NCBI GenBank assembly: GCA_947568835.1
Contig: CANOQG010000007.1
Coordinates: 5,270,001-5,334,000, forward strand
DNA: 64,000 bases
From: Protonemura montana
Taxonomy: Eukaryota; Arthropoda; Insecta; Plecoptera; Nemouridae
Reading direction: 5' to 3'
Each line of letters opens with the position of its first letter. Position 1 is the first letter of the stretch. Positions 748-64,000 of this stretch are shown piece by piece. Below the pieces are notes generated by a model. It was not told the DNA's origin. It saw nothing but the letters and a program-made list of their open reading frames with translations, and made no database searches. The translations under genes and the position numbers were made by a program.

Positions 748-750
748 TAG
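748..750 (+). other. TAG landmark variant (first of a recurrent series)
   Basis: CATG is changed to CTAG in the context GCCCCTAGTCCTG. The same variant ends at 750, 3528, 4035, 7973, 11820, 15748, 18907, 31284, 37117, 41022, 44903, 48126, 49761, 53044, 56478, 60347 and 63630. Leaving out the copy at 3528, spacings are 3285, 3938, 3847, 3928, 3159, 12377, 5833, 3905, 3881, 3223, 1635, 3283, 3434, 3869 and 3283 bp, so it acts as a ruler for the 3.2-3.9-kb higher-order period. It is a stop codon only in one frame of a non-coding array. Confidence 0.9.
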
Positions 751-1306
751 TCCTGCCCTATGTCCTGTCCCATGTCCTGCCCCATGTCCTGCCCCATGTC
801 CTGTCCCATGTCCTGCCTCATGTCCTGCCCCATGTCCTGCCCTATGTCCTGCCCCATGTCCTGCCCCATGTCCTGCCCCATGTCCTGCCCTATGTCCTGC
901 CCCATGTCCTGCCCTATGTCCTGTCCCATGTCCTGCTCCATGTCCTGCCCCATGTCCTGCCCCATGTCCCATGTCCTGCCCCATGTCCTGCCCCATGTCC
1001 TGCCCATGTCATGCCCCATGTCCTGCCCCATGTCCTGCCCCATGTCCCATGTCCTGCCTCATGTCCTGCCCCTTGTCCTGTCCTATTTCCTGCCCCATGT
1101 CCTGCCCCATGTCCTGCCCCGTGTCCTGCCCCATGTCCTGCCCCATGTTCTGCCCCATGTCCTGCCCCATGTCTTGCCCCATGTCCCATGTCCTGCCCCA
1201 TGTCCTGCCCCATGTCCTGCCCCATGTCCTTCCCTATGTCCTGTCCCATGTCCTGCCCCATGTCCTGCCCCATGTCCTGCCCCATGTCCTGCTCCATGTC
1301 CTTCCC

Positions 1307-1317
1307 CTGTCCAGCCC
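1307..1317 (+). repeat. 11-bp unit, CTGTCCAGCCC allele (representative copy)
   Basis: This follows a G9>T 12-mer (CATGTCCTTCCC, 1,295-1,306) and lacks the A of CATG, like the 549 allele, but carries C>A to give CCAGCCC. Further copies lie near 4,605, 8,471, 16,597, 21,673, 25,191, 28,972 and 34,803. They mark matching places in the large duplicated blocks. None was noticed to the right of about 35 kb. Confidence 0.88.
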
Positions 1318-1955
1318 CATGTCCCATGTCCTGCCCCATGTCCTGCCACATGTCCTGCCCCATGTCCTGCCATATGTCCTGTCCCATGTCCTGCCCCATG
1401 TCCTGCCCTATGTCCTGCCCCATGTCCTGCCCCATGTCCTGCTCCATGTCCTGCCCCATGTCCTGCCCCATGTCCAATGTCTTGCCCCATATCCTGCCCT
1501 ATGTCCTGCCCCATGTCCTGCCCCATGTCCTGCCCATGTCCTGTCCCATGTCCTGCCCCATGTCATGCCCCATGTCCTGCCCCATGTCCTGCCCCATGTC
1601 CTATGTCCTGCCCCATGTCCTGCCCCTTGTCCTGTCCCATTTCCTGCCCCATGTCCTGCCCCATGTCCTGACCCATGTCCTGCCCCATGTCCTGCCCCAT
1701 GTCCTGCCCCATGTCCTGCCCCATGTCCTGCCCCATGTCCCATGTCCTGCCCCATGTCCTGCCCCTTGTCCTGTCCCATTTCCTGCCCCATGTCCTACCC
1801 CATGTCCTGCCCCATGTCCTGCCCCATGTCCTGCCCCATGTCCTGCCTCATGTCCTGCCCCATGTCTTGCCCCATGTCCCATGTCCTGCCCCATGTCCTG
1901 CCCCATGTTCTGCCCCATGTCCTGCCCTATGTCCTGTCTTATGTCCTGCCCCATG

Positions 1956-1958
1956 TAA
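1956..1958 (+). other. TAA landmark variant CATGTAATG (first of a recurrent series)
   Basis: C6 and C7 of one unit are both A, giving CATGTAATGCCCC. Copies end at 1958, 3369, 6493, 10340, 17427, 22506, 26024, 29805 and 35637, and none was found further right. In five of the copies (17,427; 22,506; 26,024; 29,805; 35,637) a second TAA variant, CCTAACCC, ends exactly 232 bp upstream (17,195; 22,274; 25,792; 29,573; 35,405). The fixed spacing shows that these are copies of one ancestral block. Confidence 0.9.
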
Positions 1959-2409
1959 TGCCCCATGTCCTGCTCCATGTCCTCCCCCTGTCCTGCCCTC
2001 TATCTTATGTCCAGCCCCATGTCCTGCCTCATGGCCTGCCCCATGTCCTGCCCTATGTCCTGTCCCATGTCCTGCCCCATTTCCTGCCCCATGTCCTGCT
2101 CCATGTCCTGCCCCATGTCCTGCCCCATGTCCCGCTCCATGTCCTCCCCATGTCCTGCCTCATGTCCCATGTCCTGCCCCATGTCCTGCCCCATGTCCTG
2201 TCCCATGTCCTGCCCCATGTTTTGCCCCATGTCCTGTCCAATGTCCTGCCTCATGTCCTGCCCCATGTCCTGCCCCATGTCCTGCCCCATGTCCTGCCCC
2301 ATGTCCTGTCCCATGTCCTGCCCCATGTCATGCCCCATGTCCTGCCCCATGTCCTGCCCCATGTCCTGCCCCATGTCCTGCCCCATGTCCTGCCCCATGT
2401 CTTGCCCCA

Positions 2410-3408
2410 TGTTCCATGTCCTGCCCCATGTCCTGCCCCATGTCCTGCCCCATGTCCTTCCCTATGTCCTGTCCCATGTCCTGCCCCATGTCCTGCCCCA
2501 TGTCCTGCTCCATGTCCTCCCCCTGTCCTGCCCCATGTCCCATGTCCTGCATCATGTCCTGCCCCATGTCCTGCCCCATGTCCTGCCCTATGTCTTGTCC
2601 CATGTCCTGCCCCATGTCCTGCCCCATGTCCTGCCCTATGTCCTGCCCCATGTCTTGCCCCATGTCCCATGTCCTGCCCCATGTCCTGCCCCATGTCCTG
2701 CCCCATGTCCTGCCCTATGTCCTGCCCCATGTCCTGCCCCTTGTCCTGCCCCATGTCCTGCTCCATGTCCTGCCCCATGTCCCATGTCCTGCCCCATTTC
2801 CTGCCCCATGTCCTGCCCCATGTCCTGTCCCATGTCCTGCCTCATGTCCTGCCCCATGTCCTGCCCTATGTCCTGCCCCATGCCCTGCCCCATGTCCTGC
2901 CCCATGTCCTGCCCTATGTCCTGCCCCATGTCCTGCCCTATGTCCTGTCCCATGTCCTGCTCCATGTCCTGCCCCATGTCCTGCCCCATGTCCCATGTCT
3001 TGCCCCATGTCCTGCCCCATGTCCTGCCCCATGTCCTGCCCTATGTCCTGCCCCATGTCCTGCCCTATGTCCTGTCCCATGTCCTGCTCCATGTCCTGCC
3101 CCATGTCCTGCCCCATGTCCCATGTCCTGCCCCATGTCCTGCCCCATGTCCCATGTCCTGCCCCATGTCCTGCCCCTTGTCCTGTCCCATTTCCTGCCCC
3201 ATGTCCTACCCCATGTCCTGCCCCATGTCCTGCCACATGTCCTGCCCCATGTCCTGCCTCATGTCCTGCCCCATGTCTTGCCCCATGTCCCATGTCCTGC
3301 CCCATGTCCTGCCCCATGTCCTGCCCCATGTCCTGCCCTATGTCCTGTCTTATGTCCTGCCCCATGTAATGCCCCATGTCCTGCTCCATGTCCTCCCCCT
3401 GTCCTGCC
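2410..3408 (+). repeat. Duplicated block B, copy 1 (partner about 5,534-6,532)
   Basis: It matches at an offset of 3,124 bp, including the CATTCC-type, GCATCATG and GCCCTGCCCC variants and the TAA landmark (3,369 and 6,493). Immediately to the left (about 2,085-2,390) the match continues at an offset of 3,057, so copy 2 has 67 extra bases near 5,420-5,490. The extra bases contain a 7-bp unit plus several full units. Confidence 0.82.
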
Positions 3409-3934
3409 CCATGTCCCATGTCCTGCCCCATTTCCTGCCCCATGTCCTGCTCCATGTCCTGCCCCATGTCCTGCCCCATGTCCTGTCCCATGTCCTGCCC
3501 CATGTCCTGCCCCATGTCCTGCCCCTAGTCCTGCCCTATGTCCTGTCCTATGTCCTGCCCCATGTCCTGCCCCATGTCCTGCCCCATGTCCTGCCCCATG
3601 TCCTGCCCCATGTCTTGCCCCATGTCCCATGTCCTGCCCCATGTCATGCCCCATGTCCTGCCCCATGTCCTTCCCTATGTCCTGTCCCATGTCCTGCCCC
3701 ATGTCCTGCCCCATGTCCTGCTCCATGTCCTCCCCCTGTCCTGCCCCATGTCCCATGTCCTGCCCCATGTCCTGCCCCATGTCCTGCCCCATGTCTTGCC
3801 CCATGTCCCATGTCCTGCCCCATGTCCTGCCCCATGTCCTGCCCCATGTCCTGCCCTATGTCCTGCCCCATGTCCTGCCCCTTGTCCTTCCCCATGTCCT
3901 GCTCCATGTCCTGCCCCATGTCCCATGTCCTGCC

Positions 3935-5006
3935 CCATTTCCTGCCCCATGTCCTGCCCCATGTCCTGCCCCATGTCCTGCCCCATGTCCTGTCCCATGT
4001 CCTGCCCCATGTCCTGCCCCATGTCCTGCCCCTAGTCCTGCCCTATGTCCTGTCCCATGTCCTGCCCCATGTCCTGCCCCATGTCCTGTCCCATGTCCTG
4101 CCTCATGTCCTGCCCCATGTCCTGCCCTATGTCCTGCCCCATGTCCTGCCCCATGTCCTGCCCCATGTCCTGCCCTATGTCCTGCCCCATGTCCTGCCCT
4201 ATGTCCTGTCCCATGTCCTGCTCCATGTCCTGCCCCATGTCCTGCCCCATGTCCCATGTCCTGCCCCATGTCCTGCCCCATGTCCTGTCCCATGTCCTGC
4301 CCCATGTCATGCCCCATGTCCTGCCCCATGTCCTGCCCCATGTCCCATGTCCTGCCTCATGTCCTGCCCCTTGTCCTGTCCTATTTCCTGCCCCATGTCC
4401 TGCCCCATGTCCTGCCCCGTGTCCTGCCCCATGTCCTGCCCCATGTTCTGCCCCATGTCCTGCACCATGTCTTGCCCCATGTCCCATGTCCTGCCCCATG
4501 TCCTGCCCCATGTCCTGCCCCATGTCCTTCCCTATGTCCTGTCCCATGTCCTGCCCCATGTCCTGCCCCATGTCCTGCCCCATGTCCTGCTCCATGTCCT
4601 TCCCCTGTCCAGCCCCATGTCCCATGTCCTGCCCCATGTCCTGCCACATGTCCTGCCCCATGTCCTGCCATATGTCCTGTCCCATGTCCTGCCCCATGTC
4701 CTGCCCTATGTCCTGCCCCATGTCCTGCCCCATGTCCTGCTCCATGTCCTGCCCCATGTCCTTCCCCATGTCCAATGTCTTGCCCCATATCCTGCCCTAT
4801 GTCCTGCCCCATGTCCTGCCCCATGTCCTGCCCATGTCCTGTCCCATGTCCTGCCCCATGTCATGCCCCATGTCCTGCCCCATGTCCTGCCCCATGTCCT
4901 ATGTCCTGCCCCATGTCCTGCCCCTTGTCCTGTCCCATTTCCTGCCCCATGTCCTGCCCCATGTCCTGACCCATGTCCTGCCCCATGTCCTGCCCCATGT
5001 CCTGCC
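3935..5006 (+). repeat. Duplicated block C, copy 2
   Basis: This is the partner of 650-1,708. It overlaps the start of the 3.87-kb tandem block at 4,592, so the two duplications share material. That implies at least two successive rounds of rearrangement here. Confidence 0.82.
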
Positions 5007-8000
5007 GTATGTCCTGCCCCATGTCCTGCCCCATGTCCTGCCCTATGTCCTGTCCCATGTCCTGTCCCATGTCATGTCCCATGTCCTGCTCCATGTCCTG
5101 CCCCATGTCCTGCCCCATGTCCCATGTTTTGCCCCATTTCCTGCCCCATGTCCTGCTCCATGTCCTGCCCCATGTCCTGCCCCATGTCCCGCTCCATGTC
5201 CTCCCCATGTCCTGCCTCATGTCCCATGTCCTGCCCCATGTCCTGCCCCATGTCCTGTCCCATGTCCTGCCCCATGTTTTGCCCCATGTCCTGTCCAATG
5301 TCCTGCCTCATGTCCTGCCCCATGTCCTGCCCCATGTCCTGCCCCATGTCCTGCCCCATGTCCTGTCCCATGTCCTGCCCCATGTCATGCCCCATGTCCT
5401 GCCCCATGTCCTGCCCCATGTCCCATGTCCTGCCCCATGTCCTGCCCTTTGTCCTGTCCCATTTCCTGCCCCATGTCCTGCCCCATGTCCTGCCCCATGT
5501 CCTGCCCCATGTCCTGCCCCATGTCTTGCCCCATGTTCCATGTCCTGCCCCATGTCCTGCCCCATGTCCTGCCCCATGTCCTTCCCTATGTCCTGTCCCA
5601 TGTCCTGCCCCATGTCCTGCCCCATGTCCTGCTCCATGTCCTCCCCCTGTCCTGCCCCATGTCCCATGTCCTGCATCATGTCCTGCCCCATGTCCTGCCC
5701 CATGTCCTGCCCTATGTCTTGTCCCATGTCCTGCCCCATGTCCTGCCCCATGTCCTGCCCTATGTCCTGCCCCATGTCTTGCCCCATGTCCCATGTCCTG
5801 CCCCATGTCCTGCCCCATGTCCTGCCCCATGTCCTGCCCTATGTCCTGCCCCATGTCCTGCCCCTTGTCCTGCCCCATGTCCTGCTCCATGTCCTGCCCC
5901 ATGTCCCATGTCCTGCCCCATTTCCTGCCCCATGTCCTGCCCCATGTCCTGTCCCATGTCCTGCCTCATGTCCTGCCCCATGTCCTGCCCTATGTCCTGC
6001 CCCATGCCCTGCCCCATGTCCTGCCCCATGTCCTGCCCTATGTCCTGCCCCATGTCCTGCCCTATGTCCTGTCCCATGTCCTGCTCCATGTCCTGCCCCA
6101 TGTCCTGCCCCATGTCCCATGTCTTGCCCCATGTCCTGCCCCATGTCCTGCCCCATGTCCTGCCCTATGTCCTGCCCCATGTCCTGCCCTATGTCCTGTC
6201 CCATGTCCTGCTCCATGTCCTGCCCCATGTCCTGCCCCATGTCCCATGTCCTGCCCCATGTCCTGCCCCATGTCCCATGTCCTGCCCCATGTCCTGCCCC
6301 TTGTCCTGTCCCATTTCCTGCCCCATGTCCTACCCCATGTCCTGCCCCATGTCCTGCCCCATGTCCTGCCCCATGTCCTGCCTCATGTCCTGCCCCATGT
6401 CTTGCCCCATGTCCCATGTCCTGCCCCATGTCCTGCCCCATGTCCTGCCCCATGTCCTGCCCTATGTCCTGTCTTATGTCCTGCCCCATGTAATGCCCCA
6501 TGTCCTGCTCCATGTCCTCCCCCTGTCCTGCCCTATGTCTTATGTCCTGCTCCATGTCCTGCGTCATGTCCTGCCCCATGTCCTGCCCTATGTCCTGTCC
6601 CATGTCCTGCCCCATTTCCTGCCCCATGTCCTGCTCCATGTCCTGCCCCATGTCCTGCCCCATGTCCCGCTCCATGTCCTCCCCCTGTCCTGCCTCATGT
6701 CCCATGTCCTGCCCCATGTCCTGCCCCATGTCCTGCCCCATGTCCTGCCCCATGTCCTGTCCCATGTCCTGCCCCATGTTTTGCCCCATGTCCTGTCCAA
6801 TGTCCTGCCTCATGTCCTGCCCCATGTCCTGCCCCATGTCCTGTCCCATGTCCTGCCCCATGTCATGCCCCATGTCCTGCCCCATTTCCTGCCCCATGTC
6901 CCATGTCCTACCCCATGTCCTGCCCTTTGTCCTGTCCCATTTCCTGCCCCATGTCCTGCCCCATGTCCTGCCCCATGTCCTGCCCCATGTCCTGCCCCAT
7001 GTCTTGCCCCATGTCCCATGTCCTGCCCCATGTCCTGCCCCATTTCCTGCCCCATGTCCTTCCCTATGTCCTGTCCCATGTCCTGCCCCATGTCCTGCCC
7101 CATGTCCTGCTCCATGTCCTCCCCCTGTTATGCCCCATGTCCCATGTCCTGCCCCATGTCCTGCCCCATGTCCTGCCCCATGTCCTGCCCTATGTCTTGT
7201 CCCATGTCCTGCCCCATGTCCTGCCCCATGTCCTGCCCTATGTCCTGCCCCATGTCTTGCCCCATGTCCCATGTCCTGCCCCATGTCCTGCCCCATGTCC
7301 TGCCCCATGTCCTGCTCCATGTCCTGCCCCATGTCCTGCCCCATGTCCCATGTCATGCCCCATGTCCTGCCCCATGTCCTGCCCCATGTCCTGTCCCATG
7401 TCCTGCTCCATGTCCTGCCCCATGTCTTGCCCCATGTCCCATGTCCTGCCTCATGTCCTGCCCCATGTCCTGCCCCATGTCCTGCCCCATGTCCTGCCCC
7501 ATGTCCTGCCCCATGTCCTGCCCTATGTCCTGCCCCATGTCCTGCCCCATGTCCTGCCCTATGTCCTGTCCCATGTCCTGTCCCATGTCATGTCCCATGT
7601 CCTGCTCCATGTCCTGCCCCATGTCCTGCCCCATGTCCTGCCCCATGTCCTGCCCCATGTCCTGCTCCATGTCCTGCCCCATGTCCTGCCCCATGTCCCA
7701 TGTCATGCCCCAGGTCCTGCCCCATGTCCTGCACCATGTCCTGCCCCATGTCCTGCCCCATGTCCTGCCCTATGTCCTGTCCCATGTCCTGCCCCTTGTC
7801 CTGCCCCATGTCCTGCTACATGTCCTGCCCCATGTCCCATGTCCTGCCCCATTTCCTGCCCCATGTCCTGCCCCATGTCCTGCCCCATGTCCTGCCACAT
7901 GTCCTGCCCCATGTCCTGCCCCATGTCCTGTCCCATGTCCTGCCCCATGTCCTGCCCCATGTCCTGCCCCTAGTCCTGCCCTATGTCCTGTCCCATGTCC

Positions 8001-8457
8001 TGCCCCATGTCCTGCCCCATGTCCTGTCCCATGTCCTGCCTCATGTCCTGCCCCATGTCCTGCCCTATGTCCTGCCCCATGTCCTGCCCCATGTCCTGTC
8101 CCATGTCCTGCCCCATGTCCTGCCCCATGTCCTGCCCCATGTCCTGCCCTATGTCCTGTCCCATGTCCTGCCCCATGTCCTGCCCCATGTCCTGCCCTAT
8201 GTCCTGCCCCATGTCTTGCCCCATGTCCCATGTCCTGCCCCATGTCCTGCCCCATGTCCTGCCCCATGTCCTGCCCTATGTCCTGCCCCATGTCCTGCCC
8301 CATTTTCTGCTCCATGTCCCGCCCCATGTCCTGCCCCATGTCCCATGTCATGCCCCAAGTCCTGCCCCATGTCCTGCCCCATGTCCTGTCCCATGTCCTG
8401 CTCCATGTCCTGCCCCATGTCTTACCTCATGTCCCATGTCCTGCCCCATGTCCTGCT
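4592..8457 (+). repeat. 3.87-kb tandem higher-order repeat, copy 1
   Basis: This block is followed without a gap by a second copy at 8,458. The variant order matches at an offset of 3,866 bp from 4,592 to about 6,230, then at 3,847 bp to about 8,443. The 19-bp change equals one 12-mer plus one 7-mer, lost in copy 2 near 10,110. Only scattered substitutions were seen, such as CCTTCCCC at 4,762 against CCTGCCCC at 8,628. Confidence 0.9.
5534..6532 (+). repeat. Duplicated block B, copy 2
   Basis: This is the partner of 2,410-3,408. The match ends just after the TAA landmark, where CCTGCCCTATGTCTTATG replaces the copy 1 sequence. Confidence 0.82.
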
Positions 8458-11400
8458 ATATGTCCTTCCCCTGTCCAGCCCCATGTCCCATGTCCTGCCC
8501 CATGTCCTGCCACATGTCCTGCCCCATGTCCTGCCATATGTCCTGTCCCATGTCCTGCCCCATGTCCTGCCCTATGTCCTGCCCCATGTCCTGCCCCATG
8601 TCCTGCTCCATGTCCTGCCCCATGTCCTGCCCCATGTCCAATGTCTTGCCCCATATCCTGCCCTATGTCCTGCCCCATGTCCTGCCCCATGTCCTGCCCA
8701 TGTCCTGTCCCATGTCCTGCCCCATGTCATGCCCCATGTCCTGCCCCATGTCCTGCCCCATGTCCTATGTCCTGCCCCATGTCCTGCCCCTTGTCCTGTC
8801 CCATTTCCTGCCCCATGTCCTGCCCCATGTCCTGACCCATGTCCTGCCCCATGTCCTGCCCCATGTCCTGCCGTATGTCCTGCCCCATGTCCTGCCCCAT
8901 GTCCTGCCCTATGTCCTGTCCCATGTCCTGTCCCATGTCATGTCCCATGTCCTGCTCCATGTCCTGCCCCATGTCCTGCCCCATGTCCCATGTTTTGCCC
9001 CATTTCCTGCCCCATGTCCTGCTCCATGTCCTGCCCCATGTCCTGCCCCATGTCCCGCTCCATGTCCTCCCCATGTCCTGCCTCATGTCCCATGTCCTGC
9101 CCCATGTCCTGCCCCATGTCCTGTCCCATGTCCTGCCCCATGTTTTGCCCCATGTCCTGTCCAATGTCCTGCCTCATGTCCTGCCCCATGTCCTGCCCCA
9201 TGTCCTGCCCCATGTCCTGCCCCATGTCCTGTCCCATGTCCTGCCCCATGTCATGCCCCATGTCCTGCCCCATGTCCTGCCCCATGTCCCATGTCCTGCC
9301 CCATGTCCTGCCCTTTGTCCTGTCCCATTTCCTGCCCCATGTCCTGCCCCATGTCCTGCCCCATGTCCTGCCCCATGTCCTGCCCCATGTCTTGCCCCAT
9401 GTTCCATGTCCTGCCCCATGTCCTGCACCATGTCCTGCCCCATGTCCTTCCCTATGTCCTGTCCCATGTCCTGCCCCATGTCCTGCCCCATGTCCTGCTC
9501 CATGTCCTCCCCCTGTCCTGCCCCATGTCCCATGTCCTGCATCATGTCCTGCCCCATGTCCTGCCCCATGTCCTGCCCTATGTCTTGTCCCATGTCCTGC
9601 CCCATGTCCTGCCCCATGTCCTGCCCTATGTCCTGCCCCATGTCTTGCCCCATGTCCCATGTCCTGCCCCATGTCCTGCCCCATGTCCTGCCCCATGTCC
9701 TGCCCTATGTCCTGCCCCATGTCCTGCCCCTTGTCCTGCCCCATGTCCTGCTCCATGTCCTGCCCCATGTCCCATGTCCTGCCCCATTTCCTGCCCCATG
9801 TCCTGCCCCATGTCCTGTCCCATGTCCTGCCTCATGTCCTGCCCCATGTCCTGCCCTATGTCCTGCCCCATGCCCTGCCCCATGTCCTGCCCCATGTCCT
9901 GCCCTATGTCCTGCCCCATGTCCTGCCCTATGTCCTGTCCCATGTCCTGCTCCATGTCCTGCCCCATGTCCTGCCCCATGTCCCATGTCTTGCCCCATGT
10001 CCTGCCCCATGTCCTGCCCCATGTCCTGCCCTATGTCCTGCCCCATGTCCTGCCCTATGTCCTGTCCCATGTCCTGCTCCATGTCCTGCCCCATGTCCTG
10101 CCCCATGTCCTGCCCCATGTCCCATGTCCTGCCCCATGTCCTGCCCCTTGTCCTGTCCCATTTCCTGCCCCATGTCCTACCCCATGTCCTGCCCCATGTC
10201 CTGCCCCATGTCCTGCCCCATGTCCTGCCTCATGTCCTGCCCCATGTCTTGCCCCATGTCCCATGTCCTGCCCCATGTCCTGCCCCATGTCCTGCCCCAT
10301 GTCCTGCCCTATGTCCTGTCTTATGTCCTGCCCCATGTAATGCCCCATGTCCTGCTCCATGTCCTCCCCCTGTCCTGCCCTATGTCTTATGTCCTGCTCC
10401 ATGTCCTGCGTCATGTCCTGCCCCATGTCCTGCCCTATGTCCTGTCCCATGTCCTGCCCCATTTCCTGCCCCATGTCCTGTTTCATGTCCTGCCCCATGT
10501 CCTGCCCCATGTCCCGCTCCATGTCCTCCCCCTGTCCTGCCTCATGTCCCATGTCCTGCCCCATGTCCTGCCCCATGTCCTGCCCCATGTCCTGCCCCAT
10601 GTCCTGTCCCATGTCCTGCCCCATGTTTTGCCCCATGTCCTGTCCAATGTCCTGCCTCATGTCCTGCCCCATGTCCTGCCCCATGTCCTGTCCCATGTCC
10701 TGCCCCATGTCATGCCCCATGTCCTGCCCCATTTCCTGCCCCATGTCCCATGTCCTACCCCATGTCCTGCCCTTTGTCCTGTCCCATTTCCTGCCCCATG
10801 TCCTGCCCCATGTCCTGCCCCATGTCCTGCCCCATGTCCTGCCCCATGTCTTGCCCCATGTCCCATGTCCTGCCCCATGTCCTGCCCCATTTCCTGCCCC
10901 ATGTCCTTCCCTATGTCCTGTCCCATGTCCTGCCCCATGTCCTGCCCCATGTCCTGCTCCATGTCCTCCCCCTGTTATGCCCCATGTCCCATGTCCTGCC
11001 CCATGTCCTGCCCCATGTCCTGCCCCATGTCCTGCCCTATGTCTTGTCCCATGTCCTGCCCCATGTCCTGCCCCATGTCCTGCCCTATGTCCCGCCCCAT
11101 GTCTTGCCCCATGTCCCATGTCCTGCCCCATGTCCTGCCCCATGTCCTGCCCCATGTCCTGCTCCATGTCCTGCCCCATGTCCTGCCCCATGTCCCATGT
11201 CATGCCCCATGTCCTGCCCCATGTCCTGCCCCATGTCCTGTCCCATGTCCTGCTCCATGTCCTGCCCCATGTCTTGCCCCATGTCCCATGTCCTGCCTCA
11301 TGTCCTGCCCCATGTCCTGCCCCATGTCCTGCCCCATGTCCTGCCCCATGTCCTGCCCCATGTCCTGCCCTATGTCCTGCCCCATGTCCTGCCCCATGTC

Positions 11401-12290
11401 CTGCCCTATGTCCTGTCCCATGTCCTGTCCCATGTCATGTCCCATGTCCTGCTCCATGTCCTGCCCCATGTCCTGCCCCATGTCCTGCCCCATGTCCTGC
11501 CCCATGTCCTGCTCCATGTCCTGCCCCATGTCCTGCCCCATGTCCCATGTCATGCCCCAGGTCCTGCCCCATGTCCTGCACCATGTCCTGCCCCATGTCC
11601 TGCCCCATGTCCTGCCCTATGTCCTGTCCCATGTCCTGCCCCTTGTCCTGCCCCATGTCCTGCTACATGTCCTGCCCCATGTCCCATGTCCTGCCCCATT
11701 TCCTGCCCCATGTCCTGCCCCATGTCCTGCCCCATGTCCTGCCACATGTCCTGCCCCATGTCCTGCCCCATGTCCTGTCCCATGTCCTGCCCCATGTCCT
11801 GCCCCATGTCCTGCCCCTAGTCCTGCCCTATGTCCTGTCCCATGTCCTGCCCCATGTCCTGCCCCATGTCCTGTCCCATGTCCTGCCTCATGTCCTGCCC
11901 CATGTCCTGCCCTATGTCCTGCCCCATGTCCTGCCCCATGTCCTGTCCCATGTCCTGCCCCATGTCCTGCCCCATGTCCTGCCCCATGTCCTGCCCTATG
12001 TCCTGTCCCATGTCCTGCCCCATGTCCTGCCCCATGTCCTGCCCTATGTCCTGCCCCATGTCTTGCCCCATGTCCCATGTCCTGCCCCATGTCCTGCCCC
12101 ATGTCCTGCCCCATGTCCTGCCCTATGTCCTGCCCCATGTCCTGCCCCATTTTCTGCTCCATGTCCCGCCCCATGTCCTGCCCCATGTCCCATGTCATGC
12201 CCCAAGTCCTGCCCCATGTCCTGCCCCATGTCCTGTCCCATGTCCTGCTCCATGTCCTGCCCCATGTCTTACCTCATGTCCCATGTCCTG
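8458..12290 (+). repeat. 3.87-kb tandem higher-order repeat, copy 2
   Basis: This is a direct copy of 4,592-8,443. Private changes seen by eye include GCACC near 9,426, CTGTTTCATG near 10,479 (CTGCTCC in copy 1) and CCCGCCCC near 11,092. The match ends near 12,290, where CTGCCTCATG replaces the copy 1 sequence leading to the CTGTCCAGCCC unit. Confidence 0.9.
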
Positions 12291-14035: not shown

Positions 14036-14499
14036 TCCTGCCCCTTGCCTGTCCCATGTCCTGCCCCATGTCATGCCCCATGTCCTGCCCCATGTCCTGC
14101 CCCATGTCCCATGTCCTACCCCATGTCCTGCCCTTTGTCCTGTCCCATTTCCTGCCCCATGTCCTGCCCCATGTCCTGCCCCATGTCCTGCCCCATGTCC
14201 TGCCCCATGTCTTGCCCCATGTCCCATGTCCTGCCCCATGTCCTGCCCCATGTCCTGCCCCATGTCCTTCCCTATGTCCTGTCCCATGTCCTGCCCCATG
14301 TCCTGCCCCATGTCCTGCTCCATGTCCTCCCCCTGTTATGCCCCATGTCCCATGTCCTGCCCCATGTCCTGCCCCATGTCCTGCCCCATGTCCTGCCCTA
14401 TGTCTTGTCCCATGTCCTGCCCCATGTCCTGCCCCATGTCCTGCCCTATGTCCTGCCCCATGTCTTGCCCCATGTCCCATGTCCTGCCCCATGTCCTGC

Positions 14500-52100: not shown

Positions 52101-54063
52101 ATGTCCTGCCCCATGTCCTTCCCTATGTCCTGTCCCATGTCCTGCCCCATGTCCTGCCCCATGTCCTGCTCCATGTCCTCCCCCTGTTATGCCCCATGTC
52201 CCATGTCCTGCCCCATGTCCTGCCCCATGTCCTGCCCCATGTCCTGCCCTATGTCTTGTCCCATGTCCTGCCCCATGTCCTGCCCCATGTCCTGCCCTAT
52301 GTCCTGCCCCATGTCTTGCCCCATGTCCCATGTCCTGCCCCATGTCCTGCCCCATGTCCTGCCCCATGTCCTGCTCCATGTCTTGCCCCATGTCCTGCCC
52401 CATGTCCCATGTCATGCCCCATGTCCTGCCCCATGTCCTGCCCCATGTCCTGTCCCATGTCCTGCTCCATGTCCTGCCCCATGTCTTGCCCCATGTCCCA
52501 TGTCCTGCCTCATGTCCTGCCCCATGTCCTGCCCCATGTCCTGCCCCATGTCCTGCCCCATGTCCTGCCCCATGTCCAGCCCTATGTCCTGCCCCATGTC
52601 CTGCCCCATGTCCTGCCCTATGTCCTGTCCCATGTCCTGTCCCATGTCATGTCCCATGTCCTGCTCCATGTCCTGCCCCATGTCCTGCCCCATGTCCTGC
52701 CCTATGTCCTGCCCCATGTCCTGCCCCATGTCCTGCTCCATGTCCTGCCCCATGTCCTGCCCCATGTCCCATGTCATGCCCCAGGTCCTGCCCCATGTCC
52801 TGCCCCATGTCCTGCCCCATGTCCTGCCCCATGTCCTGCCCTATGTCCTGTCCCATGTCCTGCCCCTTGTCCTGCCCCATGTCCTGCTACATGTCCTGCC
52901 CCATGTCCCATGTCCTGCCCCATTTCCTGCCCCATGTCCTGCCCCATGTCCTGCCCCATGTCCTGCCACATGTCCTGCCCCATGTCCTGCCCCATGTCCT
53001 GTCCCATGTCCTGCCCCATGTCCTGCCCCATGTCCTGCCCCTAGTCCTGCCCTATGTCCTGTCCCATGTCCTGCCCCATGTCCTGCCCCATGTCCTGTCC
53101 CATGTCCTGCCTCATGTTTTGCCCCATGTCCTGCCCTATGTCCTGCCCCATGTCCTGCCCCATGTCCTGTCCCATGTCCTGCCCCATGTCCTGACCCATG
53201 TCCTGCCCCATGTCCTGCCCTATGTCCTGTCCCATGTCCTGCCCCATGTCCTGCCCCATGTCCTGCCCTATGTCCTGCCCCATATCTTGCCCCATGTCCC
53301 ATGTCCTGCCCCATGTCCTGCCCCATGTCCTGCCCCATGTCCTGCCCTATGTCCTGCCCCATGTCCTGCCCCATTTTCTGCTCCATGTCCCGCCCCATGT
53401 CCTGCCCCATGTCCCATGTCATGCCCCATGTCCTGCCCCATGTCCTGCCACATGTCCTGTCCCATGTCCTGCTCCATGTCCTGCCCCATGTCTTACCTCA
53501 TGTCCCATGTCCTGCCTCATGTCCTGCCCCATGTCCTGCCCCATATCCTGCCCCATGTCCTGCCCCATGTCCTGCCCCATGTCCTTCCCCATGTCCTGCT
53601 CCATGTCCTGCCCCATGTCTCATGTCCTGCCCCATGTCCTGCCCCATGTCCTGTCCCATGTCCTGCCCCATGTCCTGCCCCATGTCCTGCCCCATGTCCT
53701 GCCCCATGTCCTGCCCCATGTCCTGCCCCATGTCCTGTCCCATGTCCTGCCCCATGTCCTGCCCCATGTCCTGCCCCAAGTCCTGCCTCATGTCCTGCCC
53801 CATGTCCTGACCCATGTCCTGCCCCATGTCCTGCCCCATGTCCTGTCTCATGTCATGTCCCATGTCCTGCTCCATGTCCTGCCCCATGTCCTGCCCCATG
53901 TCCCATGTCCTGCCTCATGTCCTGCCCCATGTCCTGCTCCATGTCCTGCCCCATGTCCCATGTCCTGCCCCATGTCCTGCCCCATGTCCTGTCCCATGTC
54001 CTGCCCCATGTCCTGCCCCATGTCCTGCCCCATGTCCTGCCCCATGTCCTGTCCCATGTCATG
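49133..54063 (+). repeat. 4.9-kb tandem higher-order repeat, copy 2
   Basis: This is a direct copy of 44,275-49,132. Landmarks are TAG at 49,761 and 53,044 and the TGA pair at 51,077/51,566 (489 bp). The match ends near 54,063, where GTCATGTCCC replaces GTCATGCCCC. Private changes include CCACATG near 51,868 and CCAGCCCTATG near 52,574. Confidence 0.88.
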
Positions 54064-57000
54064 TCCCATGTCCTGCTCCATGTCCTGCCCCATGTCCTGC
54101 CCCATGTCCCATGTCCTGCCTCATGTCCTGCCCCATGTCCTGCCCCATGTCCTGCCCCATGTCCTGCCCCATGTCTTGCCCCATGTCCCATGTCCTGCCT
54201 CATGTCCTGCCCCATGTCCTGCCCCATGTCCTGCCCCATGTCCTGCCCCATGTCCTGCCCCATGTCCTGCCCTATGTCCTGCCCCATGTCCTGCCCCATG
54301 TCCTGCCCTATGTCCTGCCCCATGTCCTGCCCTATGTCCTGCCCCATGTCCTTCCCCATGTCCTGCTCCATGTCCTGCCCCATGTCCCATGTCCTGCCCC
54401 ATGTCCTGCCCCATGTCCTGTCCCATGTCCTGCCCCATGTCCTGACCCATGTCCTGCCCCATGTCCTGCCCCATGTCCTGCCGTATGTCCTGTCCCATGT
54501 CATGTCCCATGTCCTGCTCCATGTCCTGCCCCATGTCCTGCCCCATGTCCCATGTCCTGCCTCATGTCCTGCCCCATGTCCCGCTCCATGTCCTCCCCCT
54601 GTCCTGCCTCATGTCCCATGTCCTGCCCCATGTCCTGCCCCATGTCCTGCCCCATGTCCTGCCCCATGTCCTGTCCCATGTCCTGCCCCATGTTTTGCCC
54701 CATGTCCTGTCCAATGTCCTGCCTCATGTCCTGCCCCATGTCCTGCCCCATGTCCTGCCCCATGTCCTGCCCCATGTCCTGTCCCATGTCCTGCCCCATG
54801 TCATGCCCCATGTCCTGCCCCATGTCCTGCCCCATGTCCCATGTCCTACCCCATGTCCTGCTCTTTGTCCTGTCCCATTTCCTGCCCCATGTCCTGCCCC
54901 ATGTCCTGCCCCATGTCCTGCCCCATGTCCTGCCCCATGTCTTGCCCCATGTCCCATGTCCTGCCCCATGTCCTGCCCCATGTCCTGCCCCATGTCCTTC
55001 CCTATGTCCTGTCCCATGTCCTGCCCCATGTCCTGCCCCATGTCCTGCTCCATGTCCTCCCCCTGTTATGCCCCATGTCCCATGTCCTGCCCCATGTCCT
55101 GCCCCATGTCCTGCCCCATGTCCTGCCCTATGTCTTGTCCCATGTCCTGCCCCATGTCCTGCCCCATGTCCTGCCCTATGTCCTGCCCCATGTCTTGCCC
55201 CATGTCCCATGTCCTGCTTCATGTCCTGCTCCATGTCCTGCCCCATGTCCTGCCCCATGTCCTGTCCCATGTCCTGCCCCATGTTTTGCCCCATGTCCTG
55301 TCCAATGTCCTGCCTCACGTCCTGCCCCATGTCCTGCCCCATGTCCTGTCCCATGTCCTGCCCCATGTCATGCCCCATGTCCTGCCCCATGTCCTGCCCC
55401 ATGTCCCATGTCCTACCCCATGTCCTGCCCTTTGTCCTGTCCCATTTCCTGCCCCATGTCCTGCCCCATGTCCTGCCCCATGTCCTGCCCCATGTCCTGC
55501 CCCATGTCTTGCCCCATGTCCCATGTCCTGCCCCATGTCCTGCCCCATGTCCTGCCCCATGTCCTTCCCTATGTCCTGTCCCATGTCCTGCCCCATGTCC
55601 TGCCCCATGTCCTGCTCCATGTCCTCCCCCTGTTATGCCCCATGTCCCATGTCCTGCCCCATGTCCTGCCCCATGTCCTGCCCCATGTCCTGCCCTATGT
55701 CTTGTCCCATGTCCTGCCCCATGTCCTGCCCCATGTCCTGCCCTATGTCCTGCCCCATGTCTTGCCCCATGTCCCATGTCCTGCCCCATGTCCTGCCCCA
55801 TGTCCTGCCCCATGTCCTGCTCCATGTCCTGCCCCATGTCCTGCCCCATGTCCCATGTCATGCCCCATGTCCTGCCCCATGTCCTGCCCCATGTCCTGTC
55901 CCATGTCCTGCTCCATGTCCTGCCCCATGTCTTGCCCCATGTCCCATGTCCTGCCTCATGTCCTGCCCCATGTCCTGCCCCATGTCCTGCCCCATGTCCT
56001 GCCCCATGTCCTGCCCCATGTCCTGCCCTATGTCCTGCCCCATGTCCTGCCCCATGTCCTGCCCTATGTCCTGTCCCATGTCCTGTCCCATGTCATGTCC
56101 CAAATCCTGCTCCATGTCCTGCCCCATGTCCTGCCCCATGTCCTGCCCCATGTCCTGCCCCATGTCCTGCTCCATGTCCTGCCCCATGTCCTGCCCCATG
56201 TCCCATGTCATGCCCCAGGTCCTGCCCCATGTCCTGCCCCATGTCCTGCCCCATGTCCTGCCCCATGTCCTGCCCTATGTCCTGTCCCATGTCCTGCCCC
56301 TTGTCCTGCCCCATGTCCTGCTACATGTCCTGCCCCATGTCCCATGTCCTGCCCCATTTCCTGCCCCATGTCCTGCCCCATGTCCTGCCCCATGTCCTGC
56401 CACATGTCCTGCCCCATGTCCTGCCCCATGTCCTGTCCCATGTCCTGGCTTATGTCCTGCCCCATGTCCTGCCCCTAGTCCTGCCCTATGTCCTGTCCCA
56501 TGTCCTGCCCCATGTCCTGCCCCATGTCCTGTCCCATGTCCTGCCTCATGTCCTGCCCCATGTCCTGCCCTATGTCCTGCCCCATGTCCTGCCCCATGTC
56601 CTGTCCCATGTCCTGCCCCATGTCCTGCCCCATGTCCTGCCCCATGTCCTGCCCTATGTCCTGTCCCATGTCCTGCCCCATGTCCTGCCCCATGTCCTGC
56701 CCTATGTCCTGCCCCATGTCTTGCCCCATGTCCCATGTCCTGCCCCATGTCCTGCCCCATGTCCTGCCCCATGTCCTGCCCTATGTCCTGCCCCATGTCC
56801 TGCCCCATTTTCTGCTCCTTGTCCCGCCCCATGTCCTGCCCCATGTCCCATGTCATGCCCCATGTCCTGCCCCATGTCCTGCCCCATGTCCTGTCCCATG
56901 TCCTGCTCCATGTCCTGCCCCATGTCTTACCTCATGTCCCATGTCCTGCCTCATGTCCTGCCCCATGTCCTGCCCCATATCCTGCCCCATGTCCTGCCCC

Positions 57001-57793
57001 ATGTCCTGCCCCATGTCCTGCCCCATGTCTTGCCCCATGTCCCATGTCCTGCCCCATGTCCTGCCCCATGTCCTGCCCCATGTCCTTCCCTATGTCCTGT
57101 CCCATGTCCTGCCCCATGTCCTGCCCCATGTCCTGCTCCATGTCCTCCCCCTGTTATGCCCCATGTCCCATGTCCTGCCCCATGTCCTGCCCCATGTCCT
57201 GCCCCATGTCCTGCCCTATGTCTTGTCCCATGTCCTGCCCCATGTCCTGCCCCATGTCCTGCCCTATGTCCTGCCCCATGTCTTGCCCCATGTCCCATGT
57301 CCTGCCCCATGTCCTGCCCCATGTCCTGCCCCATGTCCTGCTCCATGTCCTGCCCCATGTCCTGCCCCATGTCCCATGTCATGCCCCATGTCCTGCCCCA
57401 TGTCCTGCCCCATGTCCTGTCCCATGTCCTGCTCCATGTCCTGCCCCATGTCTTGCCCCATGTCCCATGTCCTGCCTCATGTCCTGCCCCATGTCCTGCC
57501 CCATGTCCTGCCCCATGTCCTGCCCCATGTCCTGCCCCATGTCCTGCCCTATGTCCTGCCCCATGTCCTTCCCCATGTCCTGCTCCATGTCCTGCCCCAT
57601 GTCCCATGTCCTGCCCCATGTCCTGCCCCATGTCCTGTCCCATGTCCTGCCCCATGTCCTGCCCCATGTCCTGCCCCATGTCCTGCCCCATGTCCTGCCC
57701 CATGTCCTGCCTCATGTCCTGCCCCATGTCCTGACCCATGTCCTGCCCCATGTCCTGCCCCATGTCCTGCCGTATGTCCTGCCCCATGTCCTG
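53925..57793 (+). repeat. 3.87-kb tandem higher-order repeat, copy 1
   Basis: It is followed directly by a copy at an offset of 3,869 bp. This copy lacks 60 bp (five units) near 57,700, after which the offset is 3,929. Private changes include CTGCTTCATG near 55,213, CAAATCC near 56,101, CTGGCTTATG near 56,445 and CTCCTTGTCC near 56,815. Confidence 0.88.
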
Positions 57794-60700
57794 CCCCATG
57801 TCCTGCTCCATGTCCTGCCCCATGTCCCATGTCCTGCCCCATGTCCTGCCCCATGTCCTGTCCCATGTCCTGCCCCATGTCCTGCCCCATGTCCTGCCCC
57901 ATGTCCTGCCCCATGTCCTGTCCCATGTCATGTCCCATGTCCTGCTCCATGTCCTGCCCCATGTCCTGCCCCATGTCCCATGTCCTGCCTCATGTCCTGC
58001 CCCATGTCCTGCCCCATGTCCTGCCCCATGTCCTGCCCCATGTCTTGCCCCATGTCCCATGTCCTGCCTCATGTCCTGCCCCATGTCCTGCCCCATGTCC
58101 TGCCCCATGTCCTGCCCCATGTCCTGCCCCATGTCCTGCCCTATGTCCTGCCCCATGTCCTGCCCCATGTCCTGCCCTATGTCCTGCCCCATGTCCTGCC
58201 CTATGTCCTGCCCCATGTCCTTCCCCATGTCCTGCTCCATGTCCTGCCCCATGTCCCATGTCCTGCCCCATGTCCTGCCCCATGTCCTGTCCCATGTCCT
58301 GCCCCATGTCCTGACCCATGTCCTGCCCCATGTCCTGCCCCATGTCCTGCCGTATGTCCTGTCCCATGTCATGTCCCATGTCCTGCTCCATGTCCTGCCC
58401 CATGTCCTGCCCCATGTCCCATGTCCTGCCTCATGTCCTGCCCCATGTCCCGCTCCATGTCCTCCCCCTGTCCTGCCTCATGTCCCATGTCCTGCCCCAT
58501 GTCCTGCCCCATGTCCTGCCCCATGTCCTGCCCCATGTCCTGTCCCATGTCCTGCCCCATGTTTTGCCCCATGTCCTGTCCAATGTCCTGCCTCATGTCC
58601 TGCCCCATGTCCTGCCCCATGTCCTGCCCCATGTCCTGCCCCATGTCCTGTCCCATGTCCTGCCCCATGTCATGCCCCATGTCCTGCCCCATGTCCTGCC
58701 CCATGTCCCATGTCCTACCCCATGTCCTGCTCTTTGTCCTGTCCCATTTCCTGCCCCATGTCCTGCCCCATGTCCTGCCCCATGTCCTGCCCCATGTCCT
58801 GCCCCATGTCTTGCCCCATGTCCCATGTCCTGCCCCATGTCCTGCCCCATGTCCTGCCCCATGTCCTTCCCTATGTCCTGTCCCATGTCCTGCCCCATGT
58901 CCTGCCCCATGTCCTGCTCCATGTCCTCCCCCTGTTATGCCCCATGTCCCATGTCCTGCCCCATGTCCTGCCCCATGTCCTGCCCCATGTCCTGCCCTAT
59001 GTCTTGTCCCATGTCCTGCCCCATGTCCTGCCCCATGTCCTGCCCTATGTCCTGCCCCATGTCTTGCCCCATGTCCCATGTCCTGCCCCATGTCCTGCTC
59101 CATGTCCTGCCCCATGTCCTGCCCCATGTCCTGTCCCATGTCCTGCCCCATGTTTTGCCCCATGTCCTGTCCAATGTCCTGCCTCACGTCCTGCCCCATG
59201 TCCTGCCCCATGTCCTGTCCCATGTCCTGCCCCATGTCATGCCCCATGTCCTGCCCCATGTCCTGCCCCATGTCCCATGTCCTACCCCATGTCCTGCCCT
59301 TTGTCCTGTCCCATTTCCTGCCCCATGTCCTGCCCCATGTCCTGCCCCATGTCCTGCCCCATGTCCTGCCCCATGTCTTGCCCCATGTCCCATGTCCTGC
59401 CCCATGTCCTGCCCCATGTCCTGCCCCATGTCCTTCCCTATGTCCTGTCCCATGTCCTGCCCCATGTCCTGCCCCATGTCCTGCTCCATGTCCTCCCCCT
59501 GTTATGCCCCATGTCCCATGTCCTGCCCCATGTCCTGCCCCATGTCCTGCCCCATGTCCTGCCCTATGTCTTGTCCCATGTCCTGCCCCATGTCCTGCCC
59601 CATGTCCTGCCCTATGTCCTGCCCCATGTCTTGCCCCATGTCCCATGTCCTGCCCCATGTCCTGCCCCATGTCCTGCCCCATGTCCTGCTCCATGTCCTG
59701 CCCCATGTCCTGCCCCATGTCCCATGTCATGCCCCATGTCCTGCCCCATGTCCTGCCCCATGTCCTGTCCCATGTCCTGCTCCATGTCCTGCCCCATGTC
59801 TTGCCCCATGTCCCATGTCCTGCCTCATGTCCTGCCCCATGTCCTGCCCCATGTCCTGCCCCATGTCCTGCCCCATGTCCTGCCCCATGTCCTGCCCTAT
59901 GTCCTGCCCCATGTCCTGCCCCATGTCCTGCCCTATGTCCTGTCCCATGTCCTGTCCCATGTCATGTCCCATGTCCTGCTCCATGTCCTGCCCCATGTCC
60001 TGCCCCATGTCCTGCCCCATGTCCTGCCCCATGTCCTGCTCCATGTCCTGCCCCATGTCCTGCCCCATGTCCCATGTCATGCCCCAGGTCCTGCCCCATG
60101 TCCTGCCCCATGTCCTGCCCCATGTCCTGCCCCATGTCCTGCCCTATGTCCTGTCCCATGTCCTGCCCCTTGTCCTGCCCCATGTCCTGCTACATGTCCT
60201 GCCCCATGTCCCATGTCCTGCCCCATTTCCTGCCCCATGTCCTGCCCCATGTCCTGCCCCATGTCCTGCCACATGTCCTGCCCCATGTCCTGCCCCATGT
60301 CCTGTCCCATGTCCTGCCCCATGTCCTGCCCCATGTCCTGCCCCTAGTCCTGCCCTATGTCCTGTCCCATGTCCTGCCCCATGTCCTGCCCCATGTCCTG
60401 TCCCATGTCCTGCCTCATGTCCTGCCCCATGTCCTGCCCTATGTCCTGCCCCATGTCCTGCCCCATGTCCTGTCCCATGTCCTGCCCCATGTCCTGCCCC
60501 ATGTCCTGCCCCATGTCCTGCCCTATGTCCTGTCCCATGTCCTGCCCCATGTCCTGCCCCATGTCCTGCCCTATGTCCTGCCCCATGTCTTGCCCCATGT
60601 CCCATGTCCTGCCCCATGTCCTGCCCCATGTCCTGCCCCATGTCCTGCCCTATGTCCTGCCCCATGTCCTGCCCCATTTTCTGCTCCATGTCCCGCCCCA

Positions 60701-61736
60701 TGTCCTGCCCCATGTCCCATGTCATGCCCCATGTCCTGCCCCATGTCCTGCCCCATGTCCTGTCCCATGTCCTGCTCCATGTCCTGCCCCATGTCTTACC
60801 TCATGTCCCATGTCCTGCCTCATGTCCTGCCCCATGTCCTGCCCCATATCCTGCCCCATGTCCTGCCCCATGTCCTGCCCCATGTCCTGCCCCATGTCTT
60901 GCCCCATGTCCCATGTCCTGCCCCATGTCCTGCCCCATGTCCTGCCCCATGTCCTTCCCTATGTCCTGTCCCATGTCCTGCCCCATGTCCTGCCCCATGT
61001 CCTGCTCCATGTCCTCCCCCTGTTATGCCCCATGTCCCATGTCCTGCCCCATGTCCTGCCCCATGTCCTGCCCCATGTCCTGCCCTATGTCTTGTCCCAT
61101 GTCCTGCCCCATGTCCTGCCCCATGTCCTGCCCTATGTCCTGCCCCATGTCTTGCCCCATGTCCCATGTCCTGCCCCATGTCCTGCCCCATGTCCTGCCC
61201 CATGTCCTGCTCCATGTCCTGCCCCATGTCCTGCCCCATGTCCCATGTCATGCCCCATGTCCTGCCCCATGTCCTGCCCCATGTCCTGTCCCATGTCCTG
61301 CTCCATGTCCTGCCCCATGTCTTGCCCCATGTCCCATGTCCTGCCTCATGTCCTGCCCCATGTCCTGCCCCATGTCCTGCCCCATGTCCTGCCCCATGTC
61401 CTGCCCCATGTCCTGCCCTATGTCCTGCCCCATGTCCTTCCCCATGTCCTGCTCCATGTCCTGCTCCATGTCCCATGTCCTGCCCCATGTCCTGCCCCAT
61501 GTCCTGTCCCATGTCCTGCCCCATGTCCTGCCCCATGTCCTGCCCCATGTCCTGCCCCATGTCCTGCCCCATGTCCTGCCCCATGTCCTGTCCCATGTCC
61601 TGCCCCATGTCCTGCCCCATGTCCTGCCCCAAGTCCTGCCTCATGTCCTGCCCCATGTCCTGACCCATGTCCTGCCCCATGTCCTGCCCCATGTCCTGCC
61701 GTATGTCCTGCCCCATGTCCTGCCCCATGTCCTGCC
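57794..61736 (+). repeat. 3.93-kb tandem higher-order repeat, copy 2
   Basis: This is a direct copy of 53,925-57,793 with the five extra units retained. It contains the TGA variants at 58,314 and 61,663 and the TAG landmark at 60,347. Its right part (from about 59,725) also matches the start of the 4.9-kb repeat. Confidence 0.87.
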
Positions 61737-64000
61737 CTATGTCCTGTCCCATGTCCTGTCCCATGTCATGTCCCATGTCCTGCTCCATGTCCTGCCCCAT
61801 GTCCTGCCCCATGTCCCATGTCCTGCCTCATGTCCTGCCCCATGTCCTGCCCCATGTCCTGCCCCATGTCCTGCCCCATGTCTTGCCCCATGTCCCATGT
61901 CCTGCCTCATGTCCTGCCCCATGTCCTGCCCCATGTCCTGCCCCATGTCCTGCCCCATGTCCTGCCCCATGTCCTGCCCTATGTCCTGCCCCATGTCCTG
62001 CCCCATGTCTTGCCCTATGTCCTGCCCCATGTCCTGCCCTATGTCCTGCCCCATGTCCTTCCCCATGTTCTGCTCCATGTCCTGCCCCATGTCCCATGTC
62101 CTGCCCCATGTCCTGCCCCATGTCCTGTCCCATGTCCTGCCCCATGTCCTGACCCATGTCCTGCCCCATGTCCTGCCCCATGTCCTGCCGTATGTCCTGT
62201 CCCATGTCATGTCCCATGTCCTGCTCCATGTCCTGCCCCATGTCCTGCCCCATGTCCCATGTCCTGCCTCATGTCCTGCCCCATGTCCCGCTCCATGTCC
62301 TCCCCCTGTCCTGCCTCATGTCCCATGTCCTGCCCCATGTCCTGCCCCATGTCCTGCCCCATGTCCTGCCCCATGTCCTGTCCCATGTCCTGCCCCATGT
62401 TTTGCCCCATGTCCTGTCCAATGTCCTGCCTCATGTCCTGCCCCATGTCCTGCCCCATGTCCTGCCCCATGTCCTGCCCCATGTCCTGTCCCATGTCCTG
62501 CCCCATGTCATGCCCCATGTCCTGCCCCATGTCCTGCCCCATGTCCCATGTCCTACCCCATGTCCTGCCCTTTGTCCTGTCCCATTTCCTGCCCCATGTC
62601 CTGCCCCATGTCCTGCCCCATGTCCTGCCCCATGTCCTGCCGCATGTCTTGCCCCATGTCCCATGTCCTGCCCCATGTCCTGCCCCATGTCCTGCCCCAT
62701 GTCCTTCCCTATGTCCTGTCCCATGTCCTGCCCCATGTCCTGCCCCATGTCCTGCTCCATGTCCTCCCCCTGTTATGCCCCATGTCCCATGTCCTGCCCC
62801 ATGTCCTGCCCCATGTCCTGCCCCATGTCCTGCCCTATGTCTTGTCCCATGTCCTGCCCCATGTCCTGCCCCATGTCCTGCCCTATGTCCTGCCCCATGT
62901 CTTGCCCCATGTCCCATGTCCTGCCCCATGTCCTGCCCCATGTCCTGCCCCATGTCCTGCTCCATGTCTTGCCCCATGTCCTGCCCCATGTCCCATGTCA
63001 TGCCCCATGTCCTGCCCCATGTCCTGCCCCATGTCCTGTCCCATGTCCTGCTCCATGTCCTGCCCCATGTCTTGCCCCATGTCCCATGTCCTGCCTCATG
63101 TCCTGCCCCATGTCCTGCCCCATGTCCTGCCCCATGTCCTGCCCCATGTCCTGCCCCATGTCCTGCCCTATGTCCTGCCCCATGTCCTGCCCCATGTCCT
63201 GCCCTATGTCCTGTCCCATGTCCTGTCCCATGTCATGTCCCATGTCCTGCTCCATGTCCTGCCCCATGTCCTGCCCCATGTCCTGCCCTATGTCCTGCCC
63301 CATGTCCTGCCCCATGTCCTGCTCCATGTCCTGCCCCATGTCCTGCCCCATGTCCCATGTCATGCCCCAGGTCCTGCCCCATGTCCTGCCCCATGTCCTG
63401 CCCCATGTCCTGCCCCATGTCCTGCCCTATGTCCTGTCCCATGTCCTGCCCCTTGTCCTGCCCCATGTCCTGCTACATGTCCTGCCCCATGTCCCATGTC
63501 CTGCCCCATTTCCTGCCCCATGTCCTGCCCCATGTCCTGCCCCATGTCCTGCCACATGTCCTGCCCCATGTCCTGCCCCATGTCCTGTCCCATGTCCTGC
63601 CCCATGTCCTGCCCCATGTCCTGCCCCTAGTCCTGCCCTATGTCCTGTCCCATGTCCTGCCCCATGTCCTGCCCCATGTCCTGTCCCATGTCCTGCCTCA
63701 TGTTTTGCCCCATGTCCTGCCCTATGTCCTGCCCCATGTCCTGCCCCATGTCCTGTCCCATGTCCTGCCCCATGTCCTGACCCATGTCCTGCCCCATGTC
63801 CTGCCCTATGTCCTGTCCCATGTCCTGCCCCATGTCCTGCCCCATGTCCTGCCCTATGTCCTGCCCCATATCTTGCCCCATGTCCCATGTCCTGCCCCAT
63901 GTCCTGCCCCATGTCCTGCCCCATGTCCTGCCCTATGTCCTGCCCCATGTCCTGCCCCATTTTCTGCTCCATGTCCCGCCCCATGTCCTGCCCCATGTCC
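59725..64000 (+). repeat. Block M: partial copy of 49,139-53,414, cut by the window end
   Basis: The variant order matches at a constant offset of 10,586 bp from 59,725 to the last base. It includes TAG (60,347 and 63,630 against 49,761 and 53,044) and the 489-bp TGA pair (61,663/62,152 against 51,077/51,566). No length change was seen over 4.28 kb. The block evidently continues beyond the window. Confidence 0.86.

Follow-up and report, generated by a model that had tools for sequence, protein, structure and literature searches.

The 12-mer array

The window analysed here, a 64-kb stretch of DNA (positions 5,270,001–5,334,000) of the 5.54-Mb contig C18 in a genome of 258.5 Mb and 34 contigs, consists throughout of tandem copies of the 12-mer CATGTCCTGCCC, with a self-identity of 0.864 at a lag of 12 bp. 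Parsed with a periodic model, it comprises 5,521 units in 90 variants and is 95.5% identical to the 12-mer; shortened units, 422 measuring 7 bp and 98 measuring 11 bp, shift the register. The window and all 17 ten-kb stretches sampled within the C18 array are head-to-tail arrays of this single unit. CpG occurs 91 times in the window, compared with 4,788 occurrences expected by base composition, because the 12-mer contains no CpG. When four units were folded as single-stranded DNA, the structures were weak and not clearly above shuffles (z of 1.10 and −0.44).

Since 12 bases equal four codons, the array could be read as encoding a long repetitive protein, and 78 open reading frames of at least 300 aa are present, the longest with 2,748 aa. 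We attach practically no credence to this reading. The three forward frames are near-equally open (27, 21 and 20 stops) because the 12-mer has few stops, and 519 register jumps in 64 kb alter the frame; a coding array was rejected on these two grounds. Taken jointly with the origin proposed below, the array is very probably a megabase-scale, non-coding satellite of an insect-like nuclear genome, and we infer that it is heterochromatin without a coding role.

Modules of the window

Blocks were delimited by the rare unit CCTGTTATGCCC (37 copies), which cuts most of the window with 24 of its 36 spacings between 1,450 and 1,950 bp, and were then aligned unit by unit. Three module types, A, B and C, and in addition a short module S were obtained in this way (Table 1). 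Their identities were calculated from 9 A, 10 B, 4 C and 5 S copies, excluding B′, C′ and the stretches not split by CCTGTTATGCCC (548–10,970, 47,265–50,432, 52,183–55,061 and blocks of 471 and 833 bp). One TAG unit lies in each module A; its offset is 846 in eight of the nine copies and 822 in the shortened copy.

Table 1. Features of the window (positions within the 64 kb)
Feature	Length	Position	Strand	Copies	Remarks
Tandem array of 12-mer CATGTCCTGCCC		1..64000	+		whole window occupied
TAG unit CTAGTCCTGCCC, searched as CCCCTAGTCC		748..63630	+	17	
Module A	1,521 bp	10971..12491; other starts 14899, 18058, 30435, 36268, 40197 (1,449 bp), 44054, 55629, 59498	+	9	99.2–99.9% identical in ungapped columns
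Module B	1,690–1,920 bp	12492..14331; other starts 19579, 23097, 31956, 37789, 41646, 45575, 50433, 57150, 61019	+	10	without TAG; 99.2–100% identical in ungapped columns
Variant B′	1,673 bp	start 27125	+		
Module C	1,637–1,638 bp	16420..18057; other starts 25017, 28798, 34630	+	4	without TAG; 99.6–99.9% identical
Block C′	1,598 bp	21499..23096	+		units in common: 84–88% with C, 70–74% with A
Module S	567 bp	14332..14898; other starts 39630, 43487, 55062, 58931	+	5	99.3–100% identical
A-B-S composite	3,928 bp	10971..14898; others start 36268, 40197, 55629 (3,857–3,929 bp)	+		
Tandem pair, lag 3,518 bp		19144..26179	+		304 units, 100% identical; without TAG; cleanest case

Judging by the units that it has in common with both, block C′ is likely an exchange product, or hybrid, of C- and A-like blocks. 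Between module types about 60% of the units agree, which is above the level of shuffled blocks (12 shuffles per pair): 0.584 vs 0.469 for A and B (sd of shuffles 0.010), 0.620 vs 0.456 for A and C, and 0.606 vs 0.453 for B and C. Because this agreement exceeds the shuffles, modules A, B and C may be old relatives of each other.

Copies of a module thus resemble one another (99.2–100%) more closely than the individual units resemble the 12-mer (95.5%), as is found in higher-order repeats. A single regular block length along the array was not found; the window is a mosaic of modules, and other periods prevail elsewhere. We conclude that the array is a higher-order repeat in a loose sense, namely one of nested block duplication. 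An earlier note on this DNA, made from the letters alone, had described a higher-order repeat with one unit marked by the TAG variant. The higher-order organization is real and lies far above the shuffled control, but what was taken for a single TAG-marked unit is a patchwork of the modules in Table 1.

Spacing of the TAG unit

The search word CCCCTAGTCC was found 17 times on the forward strand of the window and not once on the reverse strand; the count, the first start and the last end are those given in the earlier note. In order along the window, the 16 spacings are 2,778, 507, 3,938, 3,847, 3,928, 3,159, 12,377, 5,833, 3,905, 3,881, 3,223, 1,635, 3,283, 3,434, 3,869 and 3,283 bp. Eleven of them fall between 3,159 and 3,938 bp, the range that had been claimed for most spacings. 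As to the exceptions reported before, those of 507, 1,635, 5,833 and 12,377 bp are present; one of 498 bp does not exist, the real value being 2,778 bp.

Nine of the 16 spacings equal sums of module lengths, five exactly and four after a correction of 12 or 24 bp. The exact ones are 3,928 and 3,869 bp (A+B+S), 3,159 bp (A+C), 5,833 bp (A+B+833+C) and 12,377 bp (A+B+C′+B+C+471+B′+C), whereas 3,905, 3,881, 3,223 and the last 3,283 bp become module sums once a difference of 24 or 12 bp in the position of TAG is taken into account. The remaining seven (2,778, 507, 3,938, 3,847, 1,635, the first 3,283 and 3,434 bp) decode partly or not at all. Among the five out-of-range spacings, 12,377 and 5,833 bp decode into modules, and 2,778, 507 and 1,635 bp do not.

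Other rare units behave similarly. Spacings of 3.1–4.0 kb make up 14/19 for CATATCCTGCCC, 12/15 for CATTTTCTGCTC and 12/17 for CATGTCTTACCT, compared with 11/16 for TAG; others are spaced differently, with 2/36 for CCTGTTATGCCC, 2/38 for TATGTCTTGTCC and 0/8 for CTTGTCCTGTCC in the same range. Over the 27 units with 8–40 copies each, TAG among them, 204 of 521 spacings measure 3.1–4.0 kb. The TAG unit, a passenger at a set place within module A, is not special but one of several comparable rare marks.

Self-comparison of the recoded window

The window was recoded as its 5,521 units in 90 variants and compared with itself for off-diagonal segments, as the earlier note had asked. Over all lags, 209 segments exceeded the score threshold. 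In two samples of 400 lags each, 10 and 16 segments were found in the real order vs none in either when the unit order was shuffled; shuffling of single units is a lenient control, in which short-range order is lost too. The off-diagonals that had been predicted are all there: lags of 3,518, 3,781, 3,847, 3,857, 3,869, 4,918, 10,586, 12,378 and 18,210 bp are included among the top segments, and 4,882 and 12,377 bp appear among the exact 400-mers. The pair at a lag of 3,518 bp (Table 1) bears out the proposed size of the higher-order unit, some 300 basic units.

The 45 best segments have 95–100% unit identity across 1.6–5.5 kb. The longest runs, of approximately 5.4–5.5 kb, occur at lags of 5,832 bp (97.5% of units identical) and 18,210 bp (465 units, 98.7%). 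For exact 200-mers, the lag bin of 3.75–4.0 kb exceeds all others listed up to 22 kb, at 8.3 times the mean; further peaks among these bins lie at 10.5, 12.25, 15.25, 18.0 and 19.25 kb. The structure of the window is real and, in most of the window, well resolved.

The rest of contig C18

In all 17 ten-kb stretches sampled from the C18 array the sequence is the 12-mer; four stretches have it on the strand opposite to the other 13. TAG occurs in nine of the 17, which have 38–74% of 100-mers in common with the window, and is missing from eight, which have 6–21%; from these values it follows that the C18 array holds at least two flavours. Each ten-kb stretch has its own strongest lags. When modules were tracked in 18 other stretches (the ten-kb stretches L015, L016 and L022 left out), a contiguous A-B run with a match to S was detected in one, L019 at 1.93 Mb. 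Thus, the quasi-period of 3.2–3.9 kb is local to the window's part of the array.

L019 and the window, more than 3 Mb apart on C18, also have an exact match of 2,032 bp. Local exchange alone does not explain such distant exact copies, which suggest either long-range exchange or a C18 that is misordered or doubled by haplotypes. In line with the latter, the multi-kb repeats might partly be a product of assembly, with both haplotypes in the contig or with pieces of the array misordered or wrongly joined. Distant places are indeed very alike, 86% of the 100-mers of L011 (5.384 Mb) recurring in L020 (2.1 Mb; 78–86% for this pair, 3.3 Mb apart) and 78% of those of L021 (2.5 Mb) in L023 (3.4 Mb); moreover, the strand of the 12-mer changes along the contig, and no telomere was found at the C18 ends read. 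Nevertheless, we consider this explanation improbable. The single strand flip that was inspected (L107, C18:5,398,712–5,398,750) is continuous across a short (CA)n spacer without N, there is no N in the window or in the ten-kb loci, and multi-kb periods exist on contig C12 as well. The modules recur many times in 64 kb, each copy with its own differences, and two haplotypes are therefore an insufficient source.

At the left end of C18 (L013 and L061; C18:1–10,394), the 12-mer array is directly preceded by a satellite of 35 bp, whose recurrent spacer contains CACAAAAATATAAAAGTTGAAAAATGTCAAAG; the passage lies near 10.4 kb. Genome-wide, the 35-mer of this satellite has 219 copies in one orientation and 1,000 in the other. 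We claim no link of this satellite to a ribosomal spacer: an exact 28S pattern had no match, and an 18S pattern had one match, with one mismatch, on C14. The right end (L060, L104–L106) carries a degenerate satellite of approximately 30 bp, by eye GCTCCAGACACTCTGCCTCGCTAGCCAGAC, followed by other sequence; a satellite resembling it is present at the start of contig C8 (L035).

Other contigs carrying the 12-mer

Across the genome, the two strands carry 874 and 232 occurrences of an extended TAG word (34 bases). On C12, 17 of 19 samples between 16.9 and 18.22 Mb are 12-mer, the remaining two being the most proximal. This array of about 1.1 Mb runs to a TTAGG telomere, the contig ending at 18.23 Mb, and has the position expected of a subtelomeric satellite, whereas the ends read of the window's contig C18 show no telomere. 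Contig C17 has the 12-mer at its start and TTAGG at its end. The TTAGG telomeres, like the appearance of ND3 and COX1 on the 15.9-kb contig C34, suggest an insect, perhaps a mayfly or a stonefly. The starts of C21, C24 and C25 (73, 72 and 113 kb; L047, L050 and L051) consist of the same 12-mer.

The position next to telomeres would fit an order kept by selection. An element of centromeres, or one associated with telomeres, could for instance depend on a binding site (the TAG unit might be one) that recurs at a set spacing. We regard such selection as highly unlikely, given that the TAG unit is missing from the eight C18 stretches mentioned above and that other rare units mark the spacing equally well. 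On C12, furthermore, the median TAG spacing is 1,579 bp and 13 of 99 spacings measure 3.1–4.0 kb (among the first 100 of 1,106 places), and the recurring lags there include 7,103, 9,014 and 3,074 bp.

The homogenized cores of the arrays are 94–96% identical to the 12-mer. At 17.8 and 18.0 Mb of C12 and at 1.0 and 1.15 Mb of C17, the identity is 85% and repeated 40-mers amount to 1–6%. There is, then, a young core and an old edge, with a degenerate layer towards the C12 telomere. Two 3-kb samples near contig ends, in or near 12-mer arrays, are at odds with a simple two-layer picture of core and edge: L112 (C12:18.20 Mb) and L113 (C17:0.10 Mb) fit the 12-mer at 66% and 70%, and in both the register jumps about 50 times per kb.

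Origin of the higher-order structure

In our view, the structure is very probably a result of ordinary satellite evolution by repeated unequal exchange on the kilobase scale. Pieces of about 0.5 to about 5 kb would have been exchanged unequally, or duplicated in tandem and lost in an equivalent way, over and over again. Chance mutations, such as the one that gave the TAG unit, would have been copied along with their neighbours, and the outcome in the window's part of the array would be modules A, B, C and S together with the A-B-S composite of 3.86–3.93 kb. The exchange mechanism itself we infer from the near-identity of the modules, the nine decoded TAG spacings, the hybrid block C′ and the differing local periods on C18 and C12.

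A simulation agrees with this proposal. Arrays of 5,520 units were subjected to tandem duplication with loss elsewhere, with a mean of 150 or 300 units and in four settings; this design does not separate crossing-over from other tandem duplication, and it excludes exchange between distant places. In all 12 runs, 66–85% of the 16-unit words were repeated and the peak lag lay between 1.2 and 13.5 kb; the real window has 81% and 3.7 kb. Simulated slippage of 1–20 units (one setting, three of three runs) produced 5–7% repeated 16-unit words; the lags peaked at their shortest values, and exact repeats did not exceed the 32-unit class. The peak lag varies among runs of one model and likewise among stretches of the real array; hence, selection of a fixed period is not needed.

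A wider version of the exchange model is conceivable, although we hold it to be rather doubtful: a chromosome-end satellite that swaps multi-kb blocks between chromosome ends or homologues so frequently that each stretch has a short-lived higher-order period of its own, with age increasing from a homogenized core to a degenerate layer below the telomere. If this were true, the arrays would document legibly how higher-order repeats are born and decay in a small, insect-like genome. The window is in any case a clean example of higher-order repeats arising from a very short unit, in which the modules, the sums of their lengths and a likely hybrid can be traced by hand. It lends itself well to modelling unequal exchange, and no new mechanism is required.

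Comparison with known satellites

Alpha satellite is built of 171-bp monomers, of which a higher-order unit holds 2–20, the latter figure being the one used in the earlier note. There, a unit consists of few long monomers, whereas in the present array it consists of about 300 short ones; measured against this standard, the opinion that such an organization is uncommon for a 12-mer is justified. What both have in common is that blocks of monomers are amplified jointly, as one review describes for alpha satellite (PMC8122249).

The closest known kind is human HSat2/3, a family thought to be derived from a pentamer (CATTC), which forms multi-megabase arrays with subfamilies and includes the 3.6-kb DYZ1 unit of Y chromosome HSat3 and a 1.77-kb unit on chromosome 1 (PMC4022460). 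By arithmetic, the DYZ1 unit corresponds to approximately 700 pentamers. Like the array described here, it is a multi-kb higher-order unit made from a very short ancestral repeat (PMC4022460), and it thus sets a precedent. Alpha satellite is therefore not the sole yardstick: with the 3.6-kb unit of DYZ1, a unit of several kb composed of very short repeats is already on record (PMC4022460). However, the repeat is the 12-mer CATGTCCTGCCC here and the CATTC pentamer there, which makes our array an analogue of HSat2/3 and not a member of that family. In addition, several module types alternate here and the period shifts along the array; common descent is not claimed.

For insects, the same review reports satellites in tandem arrays, some with higher-order forms, centromeric satellites of 5–12 bp in flies, and telomeric repeats in lower Diptera for which unequal crossover has been proposed (PMC8122249). 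In its beetle example of a higher-order form, two or three copies of a 211-bp unit are joined (PMC8122249), as opposed to hundreds of 12-mers here. A description of the CATGTCCTGCCC satellite was not found in the portion of the full-text literature that was searched. The growth of satellites by the copying of blocks is already known, and the array presented here adds another case to it, one that is based on a 12-mer.
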